A DNA stretch of 64,000 nucleotides from a virus. The position numbers and the translations under genes were made by a program. The stretch is taken from IMG/VR virus record IMGVR_UViG_3300018080_008436, positions 308,998 through 372,997 of that record; one strand, 5' to 3'. Below, piece after piece: positions 2,644 to 9,461 of the stretch (position 1 is its first letter; the number at the start of each line of letters is the position of its first letter). The notes below the pieces were generated by a model. That model was not told the origin of the DNA. It was given only the letters and a program-made list of their open reading frames with translations, and ran no database searches.

Positions 2644-3129
2644 TCAAGGGCGAGTATGCAAAATAACTTGTTCGATCAACCTTTCTATGGAAGTTTCTGG
2701 CAACCTTCTCCTTTCCTTTTTATAAAGAAAATCAAGGTATCTCGTTTTTGGTGCATTATCTGGACGACCATAAAAGAAGTTCTCAGATCCTACATGTAAC
2801 CCAAATTCAACATTGGTTGTAAACGCTGGCATTGTTTTAAGTTCTCTAGGAACCCACGCAAGTATGGCTCCAAATTCTCGACAATGCGCTAAAGCCCTAT
2901 ATTCCCAATAAACTTGTTTGTGATAGTCAAAGGTGTCATCACCCTCTTTTTCTCGTGGTTCAGGGACATAGAGAACTCCATCGAATTCATGCTGTTTAAA
3001 AATATCGATAGCATTTGGCCTCCATGACTGCACATCAATGCTTCTTGGAGATGGCCCGACTAAAAACACAGGTTTTGATATACCTCTGATATCCTCTTGA
3101 ATTGGTTCTCTTGCATAAACTACTTTCAT
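2644..3129 (-). CDS. nucleoside 2-deoxyribosyltransferase-like protein
   Basis: 161 aa. PVFLVGPSPRS near the N-terminus and SWRPNAIDIFKQ resemble the nucleoside 2-deoxyribosyltransferase-like group (Nuc_deoxyri_tr2). So do YHKQVYWEYRALAHCREFGAI followed by AWVPRELKTMPAFTTNVEFG. The Glu in 'NVEFG' corresponds to the conserved motif of that group, whose members are found in phages. Likely role: exchange or hydrolysis of the base on nucleosides in phage nucleotide salvage. The substrate cannot be read from sequence. ATG 3129 overlaps the upstream stop (ATGA). Confidence 0.7.
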   Translation of the reverse strand: MKVVYAREPIQEDIRGISKPVFLVGPSPRSIDVQSWRPNAIDIFKQHEFDGVLYVPEPREKEGDDTFDYHKQVYWEYRALAHCREFGAILAWVPRELKTMPAFTTNVEFGLHVGSENFFYGRPDNAPKTRYLDFLYKKERRRLPETSIERLIEQVILHTRP

Positions 3130-3449
3130 TGTATCTCTCCTTTATTCTTACACTCCATGTTTTTAACAGTGAAGATTTCATATCTAATGCTAAGGATGAT
3201 GTTAAACTGGCTACAAACGTCTATTAATTCTTCATCCATTGGAAAGTCAGGAATTTCTTCCCCTTCTGGCAATGCACTTATCCAATCTTCTGCTTTTTTG
3301 ACCCATTCATTCGCCATATGTAAGTTTGTAAATGTTCCCACTTTCCAAGTAGTGAAGCTATTAGTACCAGAAACGGTGCCCTCAACAAGATAGACATTAT
3401 TAACGTCTTCAAGATTATGGTGACTTAATAGAGTGGGTTTAATTTTCAT
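3126..3449 (-). CDS. hypothetical protein, 107 aa
   Basis: Not recognised. It appears as a short beta-rich N-terminal half (VYLVEGTVSGTNSFTTWKVGTF) followed by helix and strand, ending with a Cys/Lys-rich tail. It lies immediately downstream of the candidate RNase P RNA with only about 40 nt between them, so the two may share a transcript. No strong Shine-Dalgarno site is visible before ATG 3449. It is coupled by ATGA to the deoxyribosyltransferase-like gene. Confidence 0.7.
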   Translation of the reverse strand: MKIKPTLLSHHNLEDVNNVYLVEGTVSGTNSFTTWKVGTFTNLHMANEWVKKAEDWISALPEGEEIPDFPMDEELIDVCSQFNIILSIRYEIFTVKNMECKNKGEIQ

Positions 3450-3489
3450 TGTAATACTCTAAATTTTATTGCAAAACTCCAAGCTCATA

Positions 3490-3700
3490 GGCAGGATTCT
3501 GTTTAATATTTTCCATCATTTATCTATTGGCATCAACCCGACCATTATAGAGTAGCTCACCCTCTAGGTCTGTTTGAATTGCAACCTCGGTAGTGCAAAC
3601 GAATCTCTTCTCCTACCTTAAGCTAAGTTGTCCTGACCTTCCTCTCATGAGCATTACCTCGTAGAGCGATGGATCGGCTTGAAAATGTTTTATCCTGGCC
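3490..3700 (-). ncRNA. rnpB: candidate RNase P RNA (bacterial-type, compact)
   Basis: The minus-strand RNA shows the order of elements of bacterial RNase P RNA. P1 is GGCCAGGAT (3700-3692) with ATCCTGCC (3497-3490), with one bulged C. P2 is AACATTTTC (3689-3681) with GAAAATATT (3513-3505), with one mismatch. The first conserved block is GAGGAAGGTCAGGAC (3644-3630; compare GAGGAAAGTCC in bacteria). The last block is AGATAAATGAT (3525-3515; bacterial AGATRAATGAY). The conserved ACAGAA (3502-3497) sits between P2 and P1. GTCA of the first block can pair with TGAT of the last, forming P4. At about 211 nt it is shorter than the usual 330-400 nt. It overlaps the last codons of the gene at 3690-4109. 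Inferred role: 5' processing of tRNAs, perhaps with a host protein subunit. Confidence 0.72.
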
Positions 3701-4109
3701 AAGGCCAAGACATAGTTAAGTGTATTGAATACATAAATCCGCCACCATCCTTAACGGCGGAATATATAAAGGGGAAAGGCTTCTTTTTAATGTCTGCGAT
3801 GGCTTCCTCAAGATAAGCGATAACCTCTTCCTCAGCCTTATTATCTCCAAGTTCTTTCCGCTTTTCGTGCCAACGAATCTGATCCCTATTTGGAACAATC
3901 CGAATAAACATGTCAGCAGGAATCCTGTCCTCATTACTACAGAACTCAGTCTTAACCCCAATTTTCTTTTCGTTGGCTTTCTTAATAAAATCTAGGATTT
4001 CTGCTTCAGTCATCTCCATAACTTCAGACATCCCAAAATCTTCTTCTGGAATGCCAAGTGACTCTAGGATATGGACATCCTCTGCAATTGCGTGAAAAAC
4101 GACTTTCAT
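3690..4109 (-). CDS. hypothetical protein, 139 aa
   Basis: Not recognised. I place the start at ATG 4109 because GGAG lies just upstream. A longer in-frame start would need TTG and would swallow that site. The N-terminus MKVVFHAIAEDVHILESLGI is followed by an acidic helical stretch and KKPFPFIYSAV. The last codons overlap the 5' strand of helix P1 in the candidate RNase P RNA, an unusual arrangement. Confidence 0.7.
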   Translation of the reverse strand: MKVVFHAIAEDVHILESLGIPEEDFGMSEVMEMTEAEILDFIKKANEKKIGVKTEFCSNEDRIPADMFIRIVPNRDQIRWHEKRKELGDNKAEEEVIAYLEEAIADIKKKPFPFIYSAVKDGGGFMYSIHLTMSWPWPG

Positions 4110-4121
4110 TGATGGCTCCAA

Positions 4122-4993: not shown

Positions 4994-5085
4994 TGGCGGA
5001 AGGAGAGGGATTTGAACCCTCGTGCCCCTTTCAGGACCAACCGCTTTCCAGGCGGTGACGATTAACCAGACTCCGTCATCCTTCC
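4994..5085 (-). tRNA. tRNA-Ser(GGA)
   Basis: Cloverleaf with acceptor GGAAGGA/TCCTTCC, G73 and encoded CCA. The anticodon arm is ACCGC-CTGGAAA-GCGGT, the variable arm is long, and the T-loop is TTCAAAT. Reads UCC/UCU. Confidence 0.93.
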
Positions 5086-5091
5086 ATATTT

Positions 5092-5343
5092 TTATTTTTC
5101 ATCTTGGGTTTTCGTTTCCCCTACTTTGATCAGATGTCTTGGGTTAACTAAAACAAGATAATTTTTAAGTACACAATATCCATTATCCAACATATACTCA
5201 ATTTCATACATGGTGTTTATACTCATACTCCAAATACCTGCACCATGCCAGTCTTGATATTTTTGGGGGCGTTTAACAACATCCCCAATTTTCAAGCCGT
5301 TAGGATTGCAAACATCTGCCAGTTCAAGATCCGTTCTTTTCAT
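5092..5343 (-). CDS. hypothetical protein, 83 aa
   Basis: Not recognised. The start is placed at ATG 5343, with AAGGAA upstream, rather than an in-frame TTG two codons earlier. The protein reads as a small beta-rich domain (LKIGDVVKRPQKYQDWHGAG, then YEIEYMLDNGYCVLKNYLVL), reminiscent of SH3-like barrels. Function unknown. It overlaps the end of the upstream gene by 20 nt. Confidence 0.68.
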   Translation of the reverse strand: MKRTDLELADVCNPNGLKIGDVVKRPQKYQDWHGAGIWSMSINTMYEIEYMLDNGYCVLKNYLVLVNPRHLIKVGETKTQDEK

Positions 5344-5602
5344 CTTCAAGTTCCTTGTTGATGAAATTCTTTAACACTGCATTGAACCCAATAGAGACAA
5401 GTTCTGAAAGCTCGTCCTCTGTTAAATCATGGGTTCTGACCCCCTCAATATTTTCTGATGCTTTTACAGCAACAACAGGAAGTCCACTCTCTTTTATTAA
5501 ATCTTTTAGTGCAATAAGTATTAACGTATCGATCTCTCCTTCAGTAAGATCGATCTTAAATGGTTCGCCTGCTTCAAGTTTTTCTGGTTCAAGAATTTTC
5601 AT
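5324..5602 (-). CDS. hypothetical protein, 92 aa
   Basis: Not recognised. A short helical, acidic protein with two similar halves around 'LTEGEIDTLILIALKDLI' and 'LTEDELSELVSIGFNAVL', which looks like an internal duplication of a helical hairpin. It has an ATGA junction with the upstream gene and a 20-nt overlap with the downstream gene. Confidence 0.7.
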   Translation of the reverse strand: MKILEPEKLEAGEPFKIDLTEGEIDTLILIALKDLIKESGLPVVAVKASENIEGVRTHDLTEDELSELVSIGFNAVLKNFINKELEDEKNGS

Positions 5603-5802
5603 CGTTTAATTACCTTCTCAGGCATTTCATCTCTTTTGTTCACAACCATGTACTTCCCATTGCCCTCAAAAATAACAGAAAGACCGCCATTTATTAGCTT
5701 AGCTGTTTCGCATTTGATCATTTCTGCCCCATCTTTTCTTTTGATCATCTCCCCAACATACTCTTCCTGTACTTTTTGATTGATAAAATCTGTTAGATTC
5801 AT
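5599..5802 (-). CDS. hypothetical protein, 67 aa
   Basis: Not recognised. The start is placed at ATG 5802 (MNLTDFINQK) because AAAGGTAG lies just upstream, and the upstream gene ends at 5807. A longer form would run into that gene. Small alpha/beta protein with a C-terminal strand (GKYMVVNKRDEMPEKVI). It sits in a tight operon with the Smr and NadD genes. Confidence 0.65.
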   Translation of the reverse strand: MNLTDFINQKVQEEYVGEMIKRKDGAEMIKCETAKLINGGLSVIFEGNGKYMVVNKRDEMPEKVIKR

Positions 5803-5806
5803 ATAT

Positions 5807-6019
5807 CTACCTTTTATTTGGCTCTTCAATCACCATTATACAGCCAAGATTAGTATCAAAGTAACTAAGTCCATATTCTTCCAGAACTTCTAGGACCAGT
5901 TCCCTCATTTTAAGGGAATTTCCTGTAACAACCTCAAAAGGAGGGTCATAATTAAAAATATGAGAGTCAAGTAAAGACCGAACATCTTGATGCTTAACCC
6001 CATGTAAATCTAACTTCAT
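5807..6019 (-). CDS. Smr-domain protein
   Basis: 70 aa from ATG 6019, which overlaps the stop of nadD (ATGA). MKLDLHGVKHQDV carries the LDLHG motif of the small MutS-related (Smr) domain. EVVTGNS is in the place of the TGxG loop, and the C-terminal GCIMVIEE strand fits. It is a stand-alone Smr unit, shorter than the usual ~80 residues. Smr domains bind or cleave branched DNA or structured RNA. Here a nucleic-acid nuclease or binding role is an inference. Confidence 0.7.
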   Translation of the reverse strand: MKLDLHGVKHQDVRSLLDSHIFNYDPPFEVVTGNSLKMRELVLEVLEEYGLSYFDTNLGCIMVIEEPNKR

Positions 6020-6669
6020 TTTCCGTGTAACCAACCCTTCCGATTATGAGTCTCTTTCATTTGAACCTCTTCGGAAGGGACATAAAGACAGTGGTCCTGG
6101 ATATATCGTTGAACTTCTTCGTCCAAATATGGCAAAAAGTCTGATCTGCCATGTTTTTTGAAGTGATCTCTTGCCATAGTAGACGAACATTCGGTAATTT
6201 TGTCTTCTACGTCCAAGAAAAGATGGGGAGGATTCTTATACCATCGATATTTCTTCTTCAATTCGATTCCACTTCTTGTTACAACAACAAATTTGGCAAT
6301 TTCCCGTAATTTTTTGAAATTATGCCAGTTAATGAAGTTGTTTACGTTGTCAGCACCAATGATAAAACTGATATCAACATCAAGTTGTGGGTCTTTGAGG
6401 AGGGTTTGGACTAATTCGAAGGTCGAACCACTCAGTTCATGTCTAATTTCGTAATCAAATACATGAAGTTTCGGATTTTTTCTGCAAGCGATAGCGCACA
6501 TCCTGAGTCTGTGTAAATTAAGCTCTAAATTCTTACCAAATCGATGTTTATTGCAAGGCAAGAGCCAAACTTCATCAAATTTTCCTTTTTCAAGGACAAA
6601 TTCAGCTACTTGTATATGAGCAAGTGTTGGGGGATTGAAAGCCCCGCCAAGAATGGCAATTTTAGTCAT
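6016..6669 (-). CDS. nadD: nicotinate-nucleotide adenylyltransferase
   Basis: 217 aa from ATG 6669 (GGAG 9 nt upstream). A TTG four codons earlier is not needed. It carries ILGGAFNPPTLAH, the nucleotidyltransferase signature with the T/HxxH histidine pair, and FIIGADN and INWHNFKKL typical of NadD. SSTMAR is in the place of the ISSTxIR motif. The enzyme joins ATP and nicotinate mononucleotide to make deamido-NAD. It probably supports NAD supply during infection. No other NAD gene is in this window. tRNA-Ser(TGA) lies immediately upstream. Confidence 0.88.
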   Translation of the reverse strand: MTKIAILGGAFNPPTLAHIQVAEFVLEKGKFDEVWLLPCNKHRFGKNLELNLHRLRMCAIACRKNPKLHVFDYEIRHELSGSTFELVQTLLKDPQLDVDISFIIGADNVNNFINWHNFKKLREIAKFVVVTRSGIELKKKYRWYKNPPHLFLDVEDKITECSSTMARDHFKKHGRSDFLPYLDEEVQRYIQDHCLYVPSEEVQMKETHNRKGWLHGK

Positions 6670-6687
6670 AGTTTTCTCCAATGATTT

Positions 6688-6775
6688 TGGCGGAAGAGGT
6701 GGGATTCGAACCCACGGATGCTCTCACATCAACGGTTTTCAAGACCGCCGCCTTCGACCTCTCAGCCACTCTTCC
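6688..6775 (-). tRNA. tRNA-Ser(TGA)
   Basis: Acceptor GGAAGAG/CTCTTCC, G73, encoded CCA. The anticodon arm GCGGT-CTTGAAA-ACCGT gives UGA. The variable arm is long and the T-arm is standard. Confidence 0.92.
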
Positions 6776-6784
6776 AAATTTTGA

Positions 6785-6918
6785 TGGACAAGACGGGATT
6801 CGAACCCGCAAATCGAGATGCCTCACCCATTGCTTAGGAGAAAAATAACTCCTGCCCATGGTAGCGACATTACTCTTAAGACCAGAGCCTCAACTTTGCC
6901 AATTTAAGTTACTTGCCC
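6785..6918 (-). tRNA. tRNA-like gene with about 60-nt insertion
   Basis: 134 nt. The ends fold as a tRNA: acceptor GGGCAAG/CTTGTCC (G3-U70 wobble), T8 A9, D-arm ACTT-AAATTGGCA-AAGT with GG in the loop, T-arm GCGGG-TTCGAAT-CCCGT, A73. No CCA is encoded. Between D-arm and T-arm there are about 88 nt instead of about 27, including a hairpin AGGAG-TTATTTTT-CTCCT. No single anticodon arm is clear. One reading gives TGGT-CTTAA...ACCA, a Leu UAA-type loop enlarged by 11 nt. An 11-bp inverted repeat (6787-6797/6916-6926) overlaps the acceptor. Confidence 0.5.
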
Positions 6919-6932
6919 GTCTTGTCAAATTT

Positions 6933-7054
6933 TGGCGGATGAGGTAGGATTCGAACCTACACTGTAGCGGTTTCTGTTTTTTGGTTGCTGAAGAGAACCT
7001 TTTTGTCAAGTTCATTTTTTGGACCGCCGTCTCTGCCAGTTGGACTACTCATCC
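6933..7054 (-). tRNA. tRNA-like gene with about 44-nt insertion in the anticodon loop
   Basis: 122 nt. Acceptor GGATGAG/CTCATCC, G73, encoded CCA, D-arm GTC-CAACTGGCAGA-GAC, T-arm GTAGG-TTCGAAT-CCTAC. The anticodon stem GCGGT/ACCGC is perfect but encloses 51 nt instead of 7, with an internal GGTT/AACC hairpin. The anticodon is unresolved. CCA appears at the left edge of the loop, but the residue before it does not fit the U33 position cleanly. Either an intron or a processed/decayed gene. Confidence 0.55.
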
Positions 7055-7112
7055 ATATTTATAGTAATATAGCCTTAAAATAAGAGATTGCAAGTTAAAT
7101 ATAAAGAAAAAT

Positions 7113-7199
7113 TGGAGGAAGATTGAGGGTTCGAACCCCATCCCTTTCGGAACCATCTGTTTTCGAAACAGTGACAGGAGCCATCCTGCATAATCTTCC
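7113..7199 (-). tRNA. tRNA-Ser(CGA)
   Basis: Acceptor GGAAGAT/ATCTTCC, U73, CCA encoded. The anticodon arm CTGT-TTCGAAA-ACAG gives CGA. The long variable arm with TTCCGAAAGGGA is typical of tRNA-Ser. U73 is unusual for serine. Confidence 0.85.
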
Positions 7200-7207
7200 A
7201 TAGAAAT

Positions 7208-7297
7208 TGGCGGAAGGGGAGGGATTCGAACCCTCGGACCCCTTGCGGGGTCGCAGGTTTAGCAAACCTGTACTTTCGGCCACTCAGTCACCCTTCC
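7208..7297 (-). tRNA. tRNA-Ser(GCT)
   Basis: Acceptor GGAAGGG/CCCTTCC, G73, CCA. The anticodon arm CAGGT-TTGCTAA-ACCTG gives GCU. The long variable arm is built on GACCCC/GGGGTC. Reads AGC/AGU. Confidence 0.94.
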
Positions 7298-7307
7298 ATA
7301 GGGGGCA

Positions 7308-8045
7308 TTATACCCCAAAAATCAATAATTCAAAATCGCCATTCTCATGTTCTACGATTGCAGAGCAATGCTCTACCCAATCTCCGCAGTTATAGTAGTC
7401 AATCCCATCAATTTTTTTGATTATAGGAGAATGAACATGACCACATATAACTCCATCGCAATGATTCTCTTTGGCATACTCTGAAAGGAGACCTTCAAAC
7501 TCTCCAACATAAGTAACAGCTTTTTTAAAATTTTCCCTGGCAAACTTTGATAAACGAACTCTTTTCACTCCGAACATCCTTAAACATCTTGCCAGGAACT
7601 CATTCATTGAAACAAGAGTGTCATAACCCCAACTTCCAACCTTTGAGATCATGACTCCAATTCTTGAAAAAAGAATGAAATCAAACTTATCTCCATGAGT
7701 GATGTAATACTTCTTTCCAAAACTGTGATAATATGTTTCTTTACAAATTTCCAGGTTCGGATAATGAAAACTGTCCAAAAGTTCCATCATACCATGATCA
7801 TGATTTCCTAAAACATAATGGACGTTACAGTGTTTTGACATTTTTAGAAGTCTTCTAATGACTTCTGTTTGGTTTTTATCCCATTTAGTTCTGTCTAATC
7901 TCCAAAGATCAAAGATATCTCCGATAAGATATAAATTGTCACATTCAGTCTCTTTTAGGAATTTAAGTAGTTCTTTAGATTTGCATCCAACACTGGCCAT
8001 GTGGCAGTCTGAGATGAATACTGCTCGGTACTTAGTTTTACTCAT
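7308..8045 (-). CDS. LpxH-like calcineurin-type phosphoesterase
   Basis: 245 aa from ATG 8045, which has a strong GGAGG site; the frame extends further upstream but lacks support. The metal-binding series of the metallophosphoesterase fold is complete: FISDCHMAS (DxH), LIGDIFDLW (GDxxD), VLGNHDHGM (GNHD), ITHGDKFD and VICGHVHSP (GHxH). The order and the 'GDIFDLW' form are those of the UDP-2,3-diacylglucosamine pyrophosphatase (LpxH) group, but in a phage the substrate may be another phosphodiester. It lies inside the tRNA array between tRNA-Ser(GCT) and tRNA-Ser(TGA). Confidence 0.82.
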   Translation of the reverse strand: MSKTKYRAVFISDCHMASVGCKSKELLKFLKETECDNLYLIGDIFDLWRLDRTKWDKNQTEVIRRLLKMSKHCNVHYVLGNHDHGMMELLDSFHYPNLEICKETYYHSFGKKYYITHGDKFDFILFSRIGVMISKVGSWGYDTLVSMNEFLARCLRMFGVKRVRLSKFARENFKKAVTYVGEFEGLLSEYAKENHCDGVICGHVHSPIIKKIDGIDYYNCGDWVEHCSAIVEHENGDFELLIFGV

Positions 8046-8133
8046 ATTTTTCCTCCTATAAGTAGTAAGGAATAATACTGAGAAAACAGGATAAAACCTA
8101 CTCAATAATGAGTTGTTAACCAAGTATTAATAT

Positions 8134-8224
8134 TGGCAGAGGGAGTGGGACTCGAACCCACAAACCGCATTTCTACAGCTTACATGATTTCAAATCAAGC
8201 TCTTCATCCAGCCAGATTCCCTCC
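8134..8224 (-). tRNA. tRNA-Ser(TGA), second copy
   Basis: Acceptor GGAGGGA/TCCCTCT (G1-U72 wobble), G73, CCA. The anticodon arm is CTTGA-TTTGAAA-TCATG, with one T-T mismatch. Long variable arm. Sequence differs clearly from the copy at 6688-6775. Confidence 0.85.
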
Positions 8225-8230
8225 ATTGAT

Positions 8231-8316
8231 TGGTAGCTAGGAGGGGGGTCGAACCCCTACGCCTTTCGGCATTAGTTTCTAAGACTAACATGTCTACCAA
8301 GTTCCATCACCTAGCC
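8231..8316 (-). tRNA. tRNA-Leu(TAG)
   Basis: Acceptor GGCTAGG/CCTAGCT, A73, CCA. The anticodon arm TTAGT-CTTAGAA-ACTAA gives UAG (reads CUA/CUG). Long variable arm and Leu-type D-arm (GGAACTTGGTAGAC). Confidence 0.93.
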
Positions 8317-8321
8317 ATCTT

Positions 8322-8398
8322 TGGTAGCCTCGCTGGGAGTCGAACCCAGAACATACAGTTTCTAAGACTGCCCTCTCTGCCAATTGGAGTACGAGACC
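8322..8398 (-). tRNA. tRNA with anticodon UAG, short variable loop
   Basis: Acceptor GGTCTCG/CGAGGCT, A73, CCA. The anticodon arm GCAGT-CTTAGAA-ACTGT gives UAG, a Leu anticodon, but the variable loop is short (class I), unlike ordinary tRNA-Leu. Amino acid identity is therefore uncertain. Confidence 0.82.
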
Positions 8399-8406
8399 AT
8401 TAAATT

Positions 8407-8492
8407 TGGCGGAAGGTAGGAGATTCGAACTCCTATGCCCGTGAGGACGACAGTTTAGCAAACTGCTGGCTTACCATTCGCCACAACCTTCC
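8407..8492 (-). tRNA. tRNA-Ser(GCT), second copy
   Basis: Acceptor GGAAGGT/ACCTTCC, G73, CCA. The anticodon arm GCAGT-TTGCTAA-ACTGT gives GCU. Long variable arm (GTCCTCACGGGC). Confidence 0.92.
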
Positions 8493-8494
8493 AT

Positions 8495-8581
8495 TGGTAG
8501 CCAGGGAGGGCCTCGAACCCTCACTCCCTTTCGGGAACTGGATTTTGAATCCAGCGCGTCTGCCAATTTCACCACCTGGCC
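8495..8581 (-). tRNA. tRNA-Leu(CAA)
   Basis: Acceptor GGCCAGG/CCTGGCT, A73, CCA. The anticodon arm CTGGA-TTCAAAA-TCCAG gives CAA (reads UUG). Long variable arm and typical Leu D-arm. Confidence 0.94.
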
Positions 8582-8592
8582 AATAAATTTAA

Positions 8593-8660
8593 TGGAGCTA
8601 ATGAGATTCGAACTCATCCCCCTGCCTCTATGGGCAGTTCGGCTACCGTCTAGTAACCCC
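8593..8660 (-). tRNA. short tRNA-like gene, possibly CAT anticodon
   Basis: 68 nt. Acceptor GGGGTTA/TAGCTCC with wobbles, A73, no CCA. T-arm ATGAG-TTCGAAT-CTCAT is good. The D-arm is about 3 nt short. The anticodon arm CTGC/GCAG holds CCATAGAG, with CAT in roughly the right place but no U33. Degenerate or unusual, possibly Met/Ile. Confidence 0.4.
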
Positions 8661-8692
8661 AATTGGTTGCGTATAAACATATAAACAATATT

Positions 8693-8780
8693 TGGTAGTC
8701 TCGGGGAGATTCGAACTCCCACCTCCTTCGCGGAGACAACGACCTCAACGTTGCGTGTCTGCCAGTTCCACCACGAGACC
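8693..8780 (-). tRNA. tRNA-Leu(GAG)
   Basis: Acceptor GGTCTCG/CGAGACT, A73, CCA. The anticodon arm CAACG-TTGAGGT-CGTTG gives GAG (reads CUC/CUU). Long variable arm. Confidence 0.93.
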
Positions 8781-8789
8781 ATTATAAGT

Positions 8790-8847
8790 GGCCATAACTG
8801 ACGAATTAACCCCAGTTTTGGCCGTTTATTCGTAATATATTACGAAT
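8790..8847. repeat. hairpin plus 20-bp perfect palindrome between tRNA genes
   Basis: GGCCATAACTG (8790-8800) pairs with CAGTTTTGGCC (8813-8823) with one mismatch. It is followed by the perfect palindrome ATTCGTAATATATTACGAAT (8828-8847). The pair fills the gap between tRNA-Leu(GAG) and the UAA-anticodon tRNA. No T-tract follows, so a terminator is not indicated. Possible protein site or RNA processing signal. Confidence 0.75.
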
Positions 8848-8850
8848 TAT

Positions 8851-8926
8851 TGGTAGCCCTGGTCGGATTCGAACCGACACTTTACGGATTTTAAGTCCGC
8901 TCCCTCTGCCGTTGGAGTACAGGGCC
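8851..8926 (-). tRNA. tRNA with anticodon UAA, short variable loop
   Basis: Acceptor GGCCCTG/CAGGGCT, A73, CCA. The anticodon arm GCGGA-CTTAAAA-TCCGT gives UAA (reads UUA, Leu). Short variable loop, class I. Its TACTCCAA...GGCAGAG D-region is shared with the UAG class I gene at 8322-8398, so the two look like paralogues. Confidence 0.82.
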
Positions 8927-8931
8927 ATTTT

Positions 8932-8997
8932 TAACTGTTTTTCTCGTTATAGTGGAAAATATAACTGTTTTTCCAGTTTTGTAACTGTTTTTCCAGT
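8932..8997 (-). repeat. three copies of an ACTGGAAAAACAGTTA-type element
   Basis: Two identical 16-mers (8962-8977, 8982-8997) and one diverged copy (8932-8947) lie between tRNA genes. Each of the two exact copies can form a 4-bp ACTG/CAGT hairpin with a GAAAAA loop. Function unknown. Confidence 0.65.
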
Positions 8998-9001
8998 AAA
9001 A

Positions 9002-9093
9002 TGGTGAGCAGGGAGGGATTCGAACCCCCAATGTTTACCCAAAGGGGACAGATTTACAGTCTGCCGCAACACCACCATCGTTGCCGCCTACCC
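9002..9093 (-). tRNA. tRNA-Tyr(GTA)
   Basis: Acceptor GGGTAGG/CCTGCTC, A73, CCA. The anticodon arm CAGA-CTGTAAA-TCTG gives GUA. The long variable arm is typical of bacterial tRNA-Tyr. Confidence 0.92.
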
Positions 9094-9097
9094 ATTT

Positions 9098-9185
9098 TGG
9101 TCCTGGTGGTAGGTAACGATCCTACTTGATGCGCAATGATGATAGTTTTACAGACTACCCCGTCTCCTTAACGGTCTACACCAGG
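9098..9185 (-). tRNA. tRNA-Tyr(GTA), divergent second copy
   Basis: Acceptor CCTGGTG/CACCAGG, A73, CCA encoded. The anticodon arm TAGT-CTGTAAA-ACTA gives GUA. The T-arm is GTAGG-ATCGTTA-CCTAC, where the loop departs from the usual TTCRANN. It begins with C1 rather than G1. Possibly a specialised or decaying copy. Confidence 0.75.
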
Positions 9186-9189
9186 ATAA

Positions 9190-9296
9190 AAAGGTGACTT
9201 AAGTCACCTAATGCCTCTGGGTCAGACTTACCAATACCGTCATATTGGGTCCGATAGCCCAGTAAGGACTTTAAGCGTCTGGTTTTCCCCAGACCC
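9190..9296 (-). other. structured non-tRNA spacer in the tRNA array
   Basis: About 107 nt with four clear helices but no cloverleaf. These are the perfect palindrome AGGTGACTTAAGTCACCT (9192-9209), CCAATA-TGACGG-TATTGG, TGGG-CTATCGGA-CCCA, and GTCTGG-GGAAAA-CCAGAC. CTTAC/GTAAG may enclose the middle two. It could be an unrecognised small RNA or the remains of tRNA genes. Confidence 0.5.
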
Positions 9297-9384
9297 TGGA
9301 GCGCGGTGAGGGATTCGAACCCTCGCGGACATAAGTCCCATCAGTTTTGCAGACTGTGCCATTAAACCACTCTGGCAACCGCGC
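9297..9384 (-). tRNA. tRNA-Cys(GCA) with long variable arm
   Basis: Acceptor GCGCGGT/ACCGCGC, U73 and encoded CCA. The anticodon arm CAGT-CTGCAAA-ACTG gives GCA. U73 and GCA are the cysteine identity elements. The variable region GGGAC-TTAT-GTCC is a class II arm, not found in ordinary tRNA-Cys. Confidence 0.8.
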
Positions 9385-9390
9385 ATATTA

Positions 9391-9461
9391 AGCACGATGT
9401 CGGAATCGAACCGACTTCTGCGGGTTTGCAATCCGCCGCCTCACCATCTGGCTCATCGTGC
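9391..9461 (-). tRNA. tRNA-Cys(GCA), class I
   Basis: Acceptor GCACGAT/ATCGTGC, U73, no encoded CCA. The anticodon arm is GCGGA-TTGCAAA-CCCGC, with an A-C mismatch next to the loop. Short variable loop. It is the first tRNA of the array in transcription order. Confidence 0.85.

Follow-up and report, generated by a model that had tools for sequence, protein, structure and literature searches.

Cells have two near-universal ribozymes, RNase P RNA being one of them, and it had been assumed that phages with large tRNA sets depend on the RNase P of their host. A search covering 5.39 million open-access papers found no report of a phage RNase P RNA, and an RNase P review and a jumbo-phage review leave such an RNA unmentioned. 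The closest described system is the bacterial type A RNA (Rfam RF00010), with which the phage RNA described here shares the order and nesting of P1-P7, the bulged U in P4, the P6 pseudoknot, P15-P17, the GGU in L15, GCAA in J5/15, and the J18/2 and J2/4 blocks. It differs from type A in that P8-P14 have given way to a small hairpin, P18 is often missing, the length is 194-276 nt instead of 350-500, the score stays below the Rfam cut-off (except in member L012), P4 varies with compensation, and the gene is phage-borne.

In the archaeal type T (type P) RNA of Pyrobaculum (Lai 2010, cited in PMC4919922 and PMC5839562), nearly the whole specificity domain has been lost, P18 is absent and a P6 is proposed; that RNA is archaeal and has archaeal proteins, whereas in the phage RNA both the bacterial L15 GGU and the type A P15-P17 are retained, and two phages have it together with RnpA. 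Many phage members combine the loss of the specificity domain with the absence of P18, and the only identified host (that of phage DLP6) is bacterial, namely Stenotrophomonas. The engineered E. coli RNA Eco CP RPR is likewise restricted to the catalytic domain, in which a P6-like pairing helps and P18 is irrelevant once the specificity domain is gone (PMC5839562), but it is a laboratory construct, whereas the phage RNA is natural and evolved, with a P6 of 7 bp. Some RNase P RNAs of CPR bacteria also lack P12-P14 and P18 and fall below Rfam thresholds; these are cellular single-copy RNAs, some of them without UGG/GGU, and no mini-hairpin class is described there (PMC8172020). Finally, Mycobacterium austroafricanum has extra RNase P RNA copies with differences in the specificity domain and suspected horizontal transfer, but these, as described, are on bacterial genomes and are not tied to phages in that report (PMC9569102).

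The present RNA (~211 nt) is encoded on the minus strand at positions 3475-3690 of the window, i.e. a stretch of 64,000 nucleotides from an IMG/VR virus contig of 476,248 bases, where it occupies a 240-nt gap between the open reading frames at 3690-4121 and 3126-3449. A preliminary description had placed a candidate RNase P RNA at 3490-3700; the locus was right and the reduced size of about 211 nt correct, but P1 extends beyond these limits with its 3' strand (3480-3484). The check proposed there, a covariance-model search, was significant: RF00010 matches with 48.9 bits over the full model (1-367; window 3472-3685), at an E-value of 2.4e-13 for a 3.2-kb stretch and 8.4e-15 for the whole record, while a type B RNA is ruled out by the lack of any match to RF00011. 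Because 48.9 bits is under the curated RF00010 cut-off of 100 bits, the RNA is missing from a default Rfam scan, as in the scan of the whole window at gathering thresholds; a 501-nt scan around the locus also gave no RNase P RNA match, which is probably a filter effect. The family model R1 gives 185.6 bits, the window RNA being part of its training set. The block GAGGAAGGTCAGGAC is present once (shuffle expectation 0.00), the single-sequence folding energy is unremarkable (z -0.79), and a consensus promoter scan near the gene did no better than shuffles.

Read 5' to 3', with helices named after those of the E. coli RNA and by the RF00010 structure line of the match, the first half of the window RNA consists of P1, P2, P3, P4 with its bulged U, P5, the 5' strand of P6, and P7 with a tiny hairpin. 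The second half returns through P5 to GCAA in J5/15, P15 (loop GGU), P16 and P17, whose loop is the 3' strand of P6, and the end is formed by the J18/2 block AGAUAAAUG (3517-3525), P2, ACAGAA, P4 and P1. Missing are P8-P14, conserved regions II and III, and P18. All features are on the minus strand. P1 pairs CAAGC (3677-3681) with GCUUG (3480-3484), with 91/96 pairs kept in 16 relatives against a mean of 56 when partners are swapped, and P2 pairs UCCAUC (3668-3673) with GAUGGA (3512-3517), with 107/108 pairs kept across 18 relatives against a swap mean of 68. The preliminary description had named the conserved blocks GAGGAAGGTCAGGAC (3644-3630) and AGATAAATG(AT) (3525-3515), and had stated that two blocks could form P4. 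Indeed, GGUCAGGA (3631-3638) pairs with UCCUGCC (3490-3496), which is preceded by the J2/4 block ACAGAA (3497-3502), and leaves a bulged U at 3636, the equivalent of E. coli U69; this pairing undergoes compensatory changes in relatives (75/77 pairs across 11 members, against a swap mean of 56). Further inward, P5 joins CAAC (3627-3630) to GUUG (3582-3585; 84/84 pairs across 21 relatives, against a swap mean of 67.5), and the P6 pseudoknot joins UAGCUUA (3619-3625) to UGAGCUA in L17 (3553-3559; 145/147 pairs, swap mean 130, P6 of three members being assigned by hand). P7 (GGUAG/CUACC, 3613-3617/3589-3593, arm 3589-3617; 105/105 pairs, swap mean 77) is capped by the mini-hairpin GAA/UUC (3608-3610/3601-3603; 51/51 pairs, swap mean 37), which replaces P8-P14. 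The P15/P16/P17 arm spans 3532-3578, with the GGU of L15 at 3536-3538, a P16 (GACC/GGUC, 3567-3570/3540-3543) that covaries, and a hand-assigned P15 with 71/72 pairs (swap mean 48).

The claim that P1, P2, the conserved blocks and ACAGAA follow the order and nesting of RNase P RNA is thus borne out throughout. The universal core (P4 from conserved regions I and V, with its bulged U) is present in the phage RNAs, as are P1, P2 and P3 around the P4 pseudoknot (with a reduced P1 and permuted P2/P3 in members L005, L024 and L025) and the type A features, i.e. the P6 pseudoknot and the P15-P16-P17 arm with GGU in L15. Judged by its sequence, the window RNA is an RNase P RNA with a type A catalytic domain and with the specificity domain swapped for a hairpin, and it is classed apart from RF00010 because it lacks that domain and stays under the curated score. 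That the reduction amounts to loss of the specificity domain goes beyond the preliminary description, as do the phage-wide family, its permuted members and the RnpA genes of two phages.

Because blastn with the window RNA as query gave no match in phages, structure-based DNA patterns (for the core and the mini-domain) were needed to find relatives, and in IMG/VR these gave members on contigs of 5.8 to 533 kb. In total, 38 distinct catalytic-domain RNase P RNAs are found in viral records, 194-276 nt long (median 212) and none of them annotated, comprising 33 IMG/VR contigs, four GenBank phages (735, 642, 634 and 595 kb), among which are the largest phage genomes known, and Stenotrophomonas phage DLP6. 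Most of the IMG/VR pattern members are backed by RF00010; the pattern matches L006, L008, L023, L050, L051, L052 and L054 were discarded as coding or chance. A helicase-based search for relatives returned one near-identical contig only, and a plasmid search gave no match. R1, which was derived from 16 sequences and a structure drawn by hand, with a short calibration that makes its E-values rough, scores 91-175 bits against independent class members overall and 125-175 bits in L081-L093, which are outside its training set. The RNAs of LR756501 (735,411 bases), LR756502 (642,428) and LR756511 (595,163) were located by blastn with other family members and score 120-142 bits with R1, while Rfam models miss those of LR756501 and LR756511; LR745206 (634,780 bases) carries the RNA at 502056-502278 of the record (91 bits, rough E 3.3e-22). 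In the cultured, T4-like DLP6 the RNA (KU682439.2, 105769-106019; 92.3 bits, rough E 2.3e-24) lies in an unannotated GenBank gap ahead of a tRNA-Arg, and has a P1 of 10 bp and a P6 that is wholly different in sequence and fully paired (GUGAGAA/UUCUCAC). The publication on DLP6 gives 30 tRNAs and has no mention of RNase P; the record itself labels one tRNA as pseudo (L104:5558-5640 region). L005, L007 and L012 diverge more than the other members, and L012, which retains part of the specificity domain, alone passes the RF00010 cut-off (118.5 bits).

Compensatory changes in related phages, named in the preliminary description as a test, are abundant, and together with the RF00010 score they support the identity that it proposed. 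In alignment A1, all 16 rows have a short hairpin instead of P8-P14 and conserved regions II and III. Standard pairs make up 95.4% of its pair cells, compared to 74.0% when shuffled and 32-43% when the partners are slid; both sides are altered in 39 of its 53 pairs, and its covariation score is 0.62 (0.19 shuffled, at most 0.12 slid). In 5000 trials of partner swapping, a test that takes no account of relatedness among sequences, the observed pairing was never reached for P1, P2, P4, P5, P6, P7, the mini-hairpin or P15, and P3 is 100% paired. The bulged U in P4 and the GGU in L15 are present in 40/40 members, the J18/2 block in 37/40 and the J2/4 block in 34/40, some members having ACAAAA or ACUGAA in the latter. 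P4 is nearly invariant in cellular RNase P RNA, whereas in phages it varies with compensation, as CGCGA/UCGCG in LR756501 and CCAAA/UUUGG in L087.

It could be argued that these are ordinary bacterial RNase P RNAs on miscalled contigs, or decayed host copies, since IMG/VR calls are automatic, the terminase PF03237 is found in only 6/25 records, and one Gemmataceae MAG has the class beside bacterial genes. A decayed copy is excluded by the compensatory evolution, and contamination is refuted for the family by the presence of the RNA in cultured phage DLP6 and in GenBank phages of 595-735 kb, so that this explanation is left with hardly any probability. When 84,980 species genomes were scanned with patterns, the class turned up in no more than two MAGs, both from Gemmataceae, a family that otherwise has full-length RNase P RNA genes, and a class-wide R1 search yielded no further clear cellular member. 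One of the two copies shares a 6.8-kb contig with three tRNAs, and the other is on a 367-kb contig amid bacterial genes, in a genome in which no full-length gene was detected. The latter copy, at L072 (G029 contig C5:188000-205000), is thus of phage type on a bacterial-looking Gemmataceae contig, by an odd tRNA-Thr(agt), and the G029 MAG may be a case of phage replacement of the cellular gene. A second weak RF00010 match in G030 (also Gemmataceae) was rejected, as it looks like a decayed copy of that genome's own gene.

The adjacency to a large tRNA array that had been remarked on earlier is correct: the window RNA sits between blocks of 12 tRNAs (301.8-303.9 kb of the record) and 14 tRNAs (314.0-318.5 kb), on the same strand as both. 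The latter block (window 4994-9461, minus strand; 14 ARAGORN tRNAs, 13 with encoded CCA), presumed to contain substrates, is upstream of the RNA in the direction of transcription, and 24/26 tRNAs of the two blocks encode CCA, which matches the retained L15 GGU. Among the 38 fetched stretches, 27 have tRNAs, with the nearest tRNA co-oriented with the RNA in 27/27 and 311/312 tRNAs on its strand; 12 RNAs are within 100 nt of a tRNA, and in L011 the RNA lies within a 28-tRNA array, a few bases from each neighbour.

The sequences themselves show the homology and secondary structure of the RNA, its lost specificity domain, its setting among tRNAs, its spread and the RnpA genes of two phages, whereas its catalysis, expression, RnpA binding and substrates are what we infer. 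It is highly probable that the phage RNA is a catalytic-domain RNase P that trims the 5' leaders off phage tRNAs together with RnpA from the host or from the phage. The RNA gene, located among the phage tRNA genes, would probably be transcribed together with them, after which the RNA would join a bacterial RnpA (phage-encoded in at least two huge phages) to give an active RNase P that cuts the 5' leaders off the clustered phage pre-tRNAs. Substrates would be recognised by their acceptor stem and RCCA end via the L15 GGU, and T-arm recognition would be dispensed with for want of a specificity domain. If the gene directly precedes a tRNA, the cut at the tRNA 5' end would release the 3' end of the RNA as well. 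In E. coli RNase P RNA the catalytic domain is active by itself, but about 120-fold slower in vitro without the specificity domain (PMC5839562), and because of that slowing it is not obvious what the phage RNA would gain over that of the host. Loss of a domain that recognises the T-arm would also loosen substrate choice, and one contig has an SRP RNA nearby; an active ribozyme might therefore have phage or host transcripts, or a 4.5S-like RNA, as its main targets rather than tRNAs. This is improbable given the co-oriented nearest tRNA in every tRNA-bearing locus (several of them abutting), the retained L15 GGU, and the CCA encoded by most window tRNAs.

RnpA was not found in the window record, and the window phage would presumably use that of its host; a profile search found RnpA absent from 39/40 records, many of which are fragments. 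In LR756502, however, RnpA is encoded (TIGR00188 52.5 bits, cut-off 38.35; KRAVDRNRVKRLMRE signature; matches to 1a6f and 4jg4), and LR745206 has an RnpA that is 52% identical to it, with a third on an IMG/VR contig. All three genes (L094:1435-1803, L102:9962-10300 and L095:4001-4282) have the RNR signature. LR756502 and LR745206 each carry both RnpA and the RNA, which argues for a working RNase P in these two huge phages. Whether the RNA cuts at all is the point on which a decoy would differ: such an RNA would bind RnpA or pre-tRNAs uncut and restrain host RNase P in favour of the phage, in line with its reduced size, the lack of phage RnpA in most records and the indirect case for catalysis. 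A decoy would need neither an active site nor the L15 GGU, whereas every member retains the bulged U and a paired P4, even with a changed P4 sequence; two phages supply their own RnpA, and a block of RNase P would stop maturation of the phage's own tRNAs too. A decoy role is therefore improbable, to about the same degree as main targets other than tRNAs.

Returning to the RNA as a tRNA-trimming RNase P, three members (L005, L024 and L025), each separated from a tRNA by about 15 nt at most, have an altered order, in that the strand after J18/2 pairs just 3' of P4 and not upstream as P2. The P2 pairs in question are GACGGUU/AACCGUC, GACAGAUU/AAUCUGUC and GACGGGUU/AACCUGUC; the motif that opens P3 in other members then follows, and its partner sits at the 5' end of the RNA. 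The permuted P2/P3 pairing is perfect (21/21 and 15/15), in three sequences, which are too few for the swap test. From these sequences it is likely that the three are circular permutations opened in the P3 loop, with P1 cut to a short linker. A scan for further permuted members returned two of the same three only, and a literature search found no natural permuted RNase P RNA.

Taken as a whole, we lean towards the reading that phages own a distinct RNase P class without the specificity domain, with a permuted subset, perhaps self-maturing and partly host-independent, and making up with RnpA a complete two-part holoenzyme in at least two huge phages. This suggests that many phages with tRNA sets bring their own catalytic part, and some the protein too, which bears on why phages carry tRNAs and how far they outlast host shutdown. 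Since the phage RNAs keep P6 while the specificity domain and, in many, P18 are lost, the class would be a natural test of the catalytic domain alone, as well as of the amount of change that the near-invariant P4 tolerates, and it supplies small ribozymes for structure and engineering. Direct testing is made possible by the cultured phage DLP6.

A few further observations concern the tRNAs and other RNAs nearby. The ARAGORN tRNAs of the block at 4994-9461 are only Ser, Leu, Tyr and Cys, and the other block of the record (L074) holds other types, so that the two look as if sorted by class. Rfam tRNA matches at 6785-6918 and 6936-7054 (minus strand; 34.6 and 36.8 bits; 134 and 119 nt), which are absent from the ARAGORN result, have insertions in or near the anticodon arm and are possibly intron-bearing or expanded tRNAs. 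In L086 and L090, ARAGORN predicts a tRNA-Pyl (CUA anticodon), which may be a stop-codon suppressor. A bacterial small SRP RNA is found at L046:5828-5917 (RF00169, 49.9 bits, above its cut-off), ~460 nt from the RNase P RNA, and at L048:5662-6168 a GOLLD RNA (RF02032, 151.6 bits) encloses a tRNA-Trp on a contig that also has the RNase P RNA.
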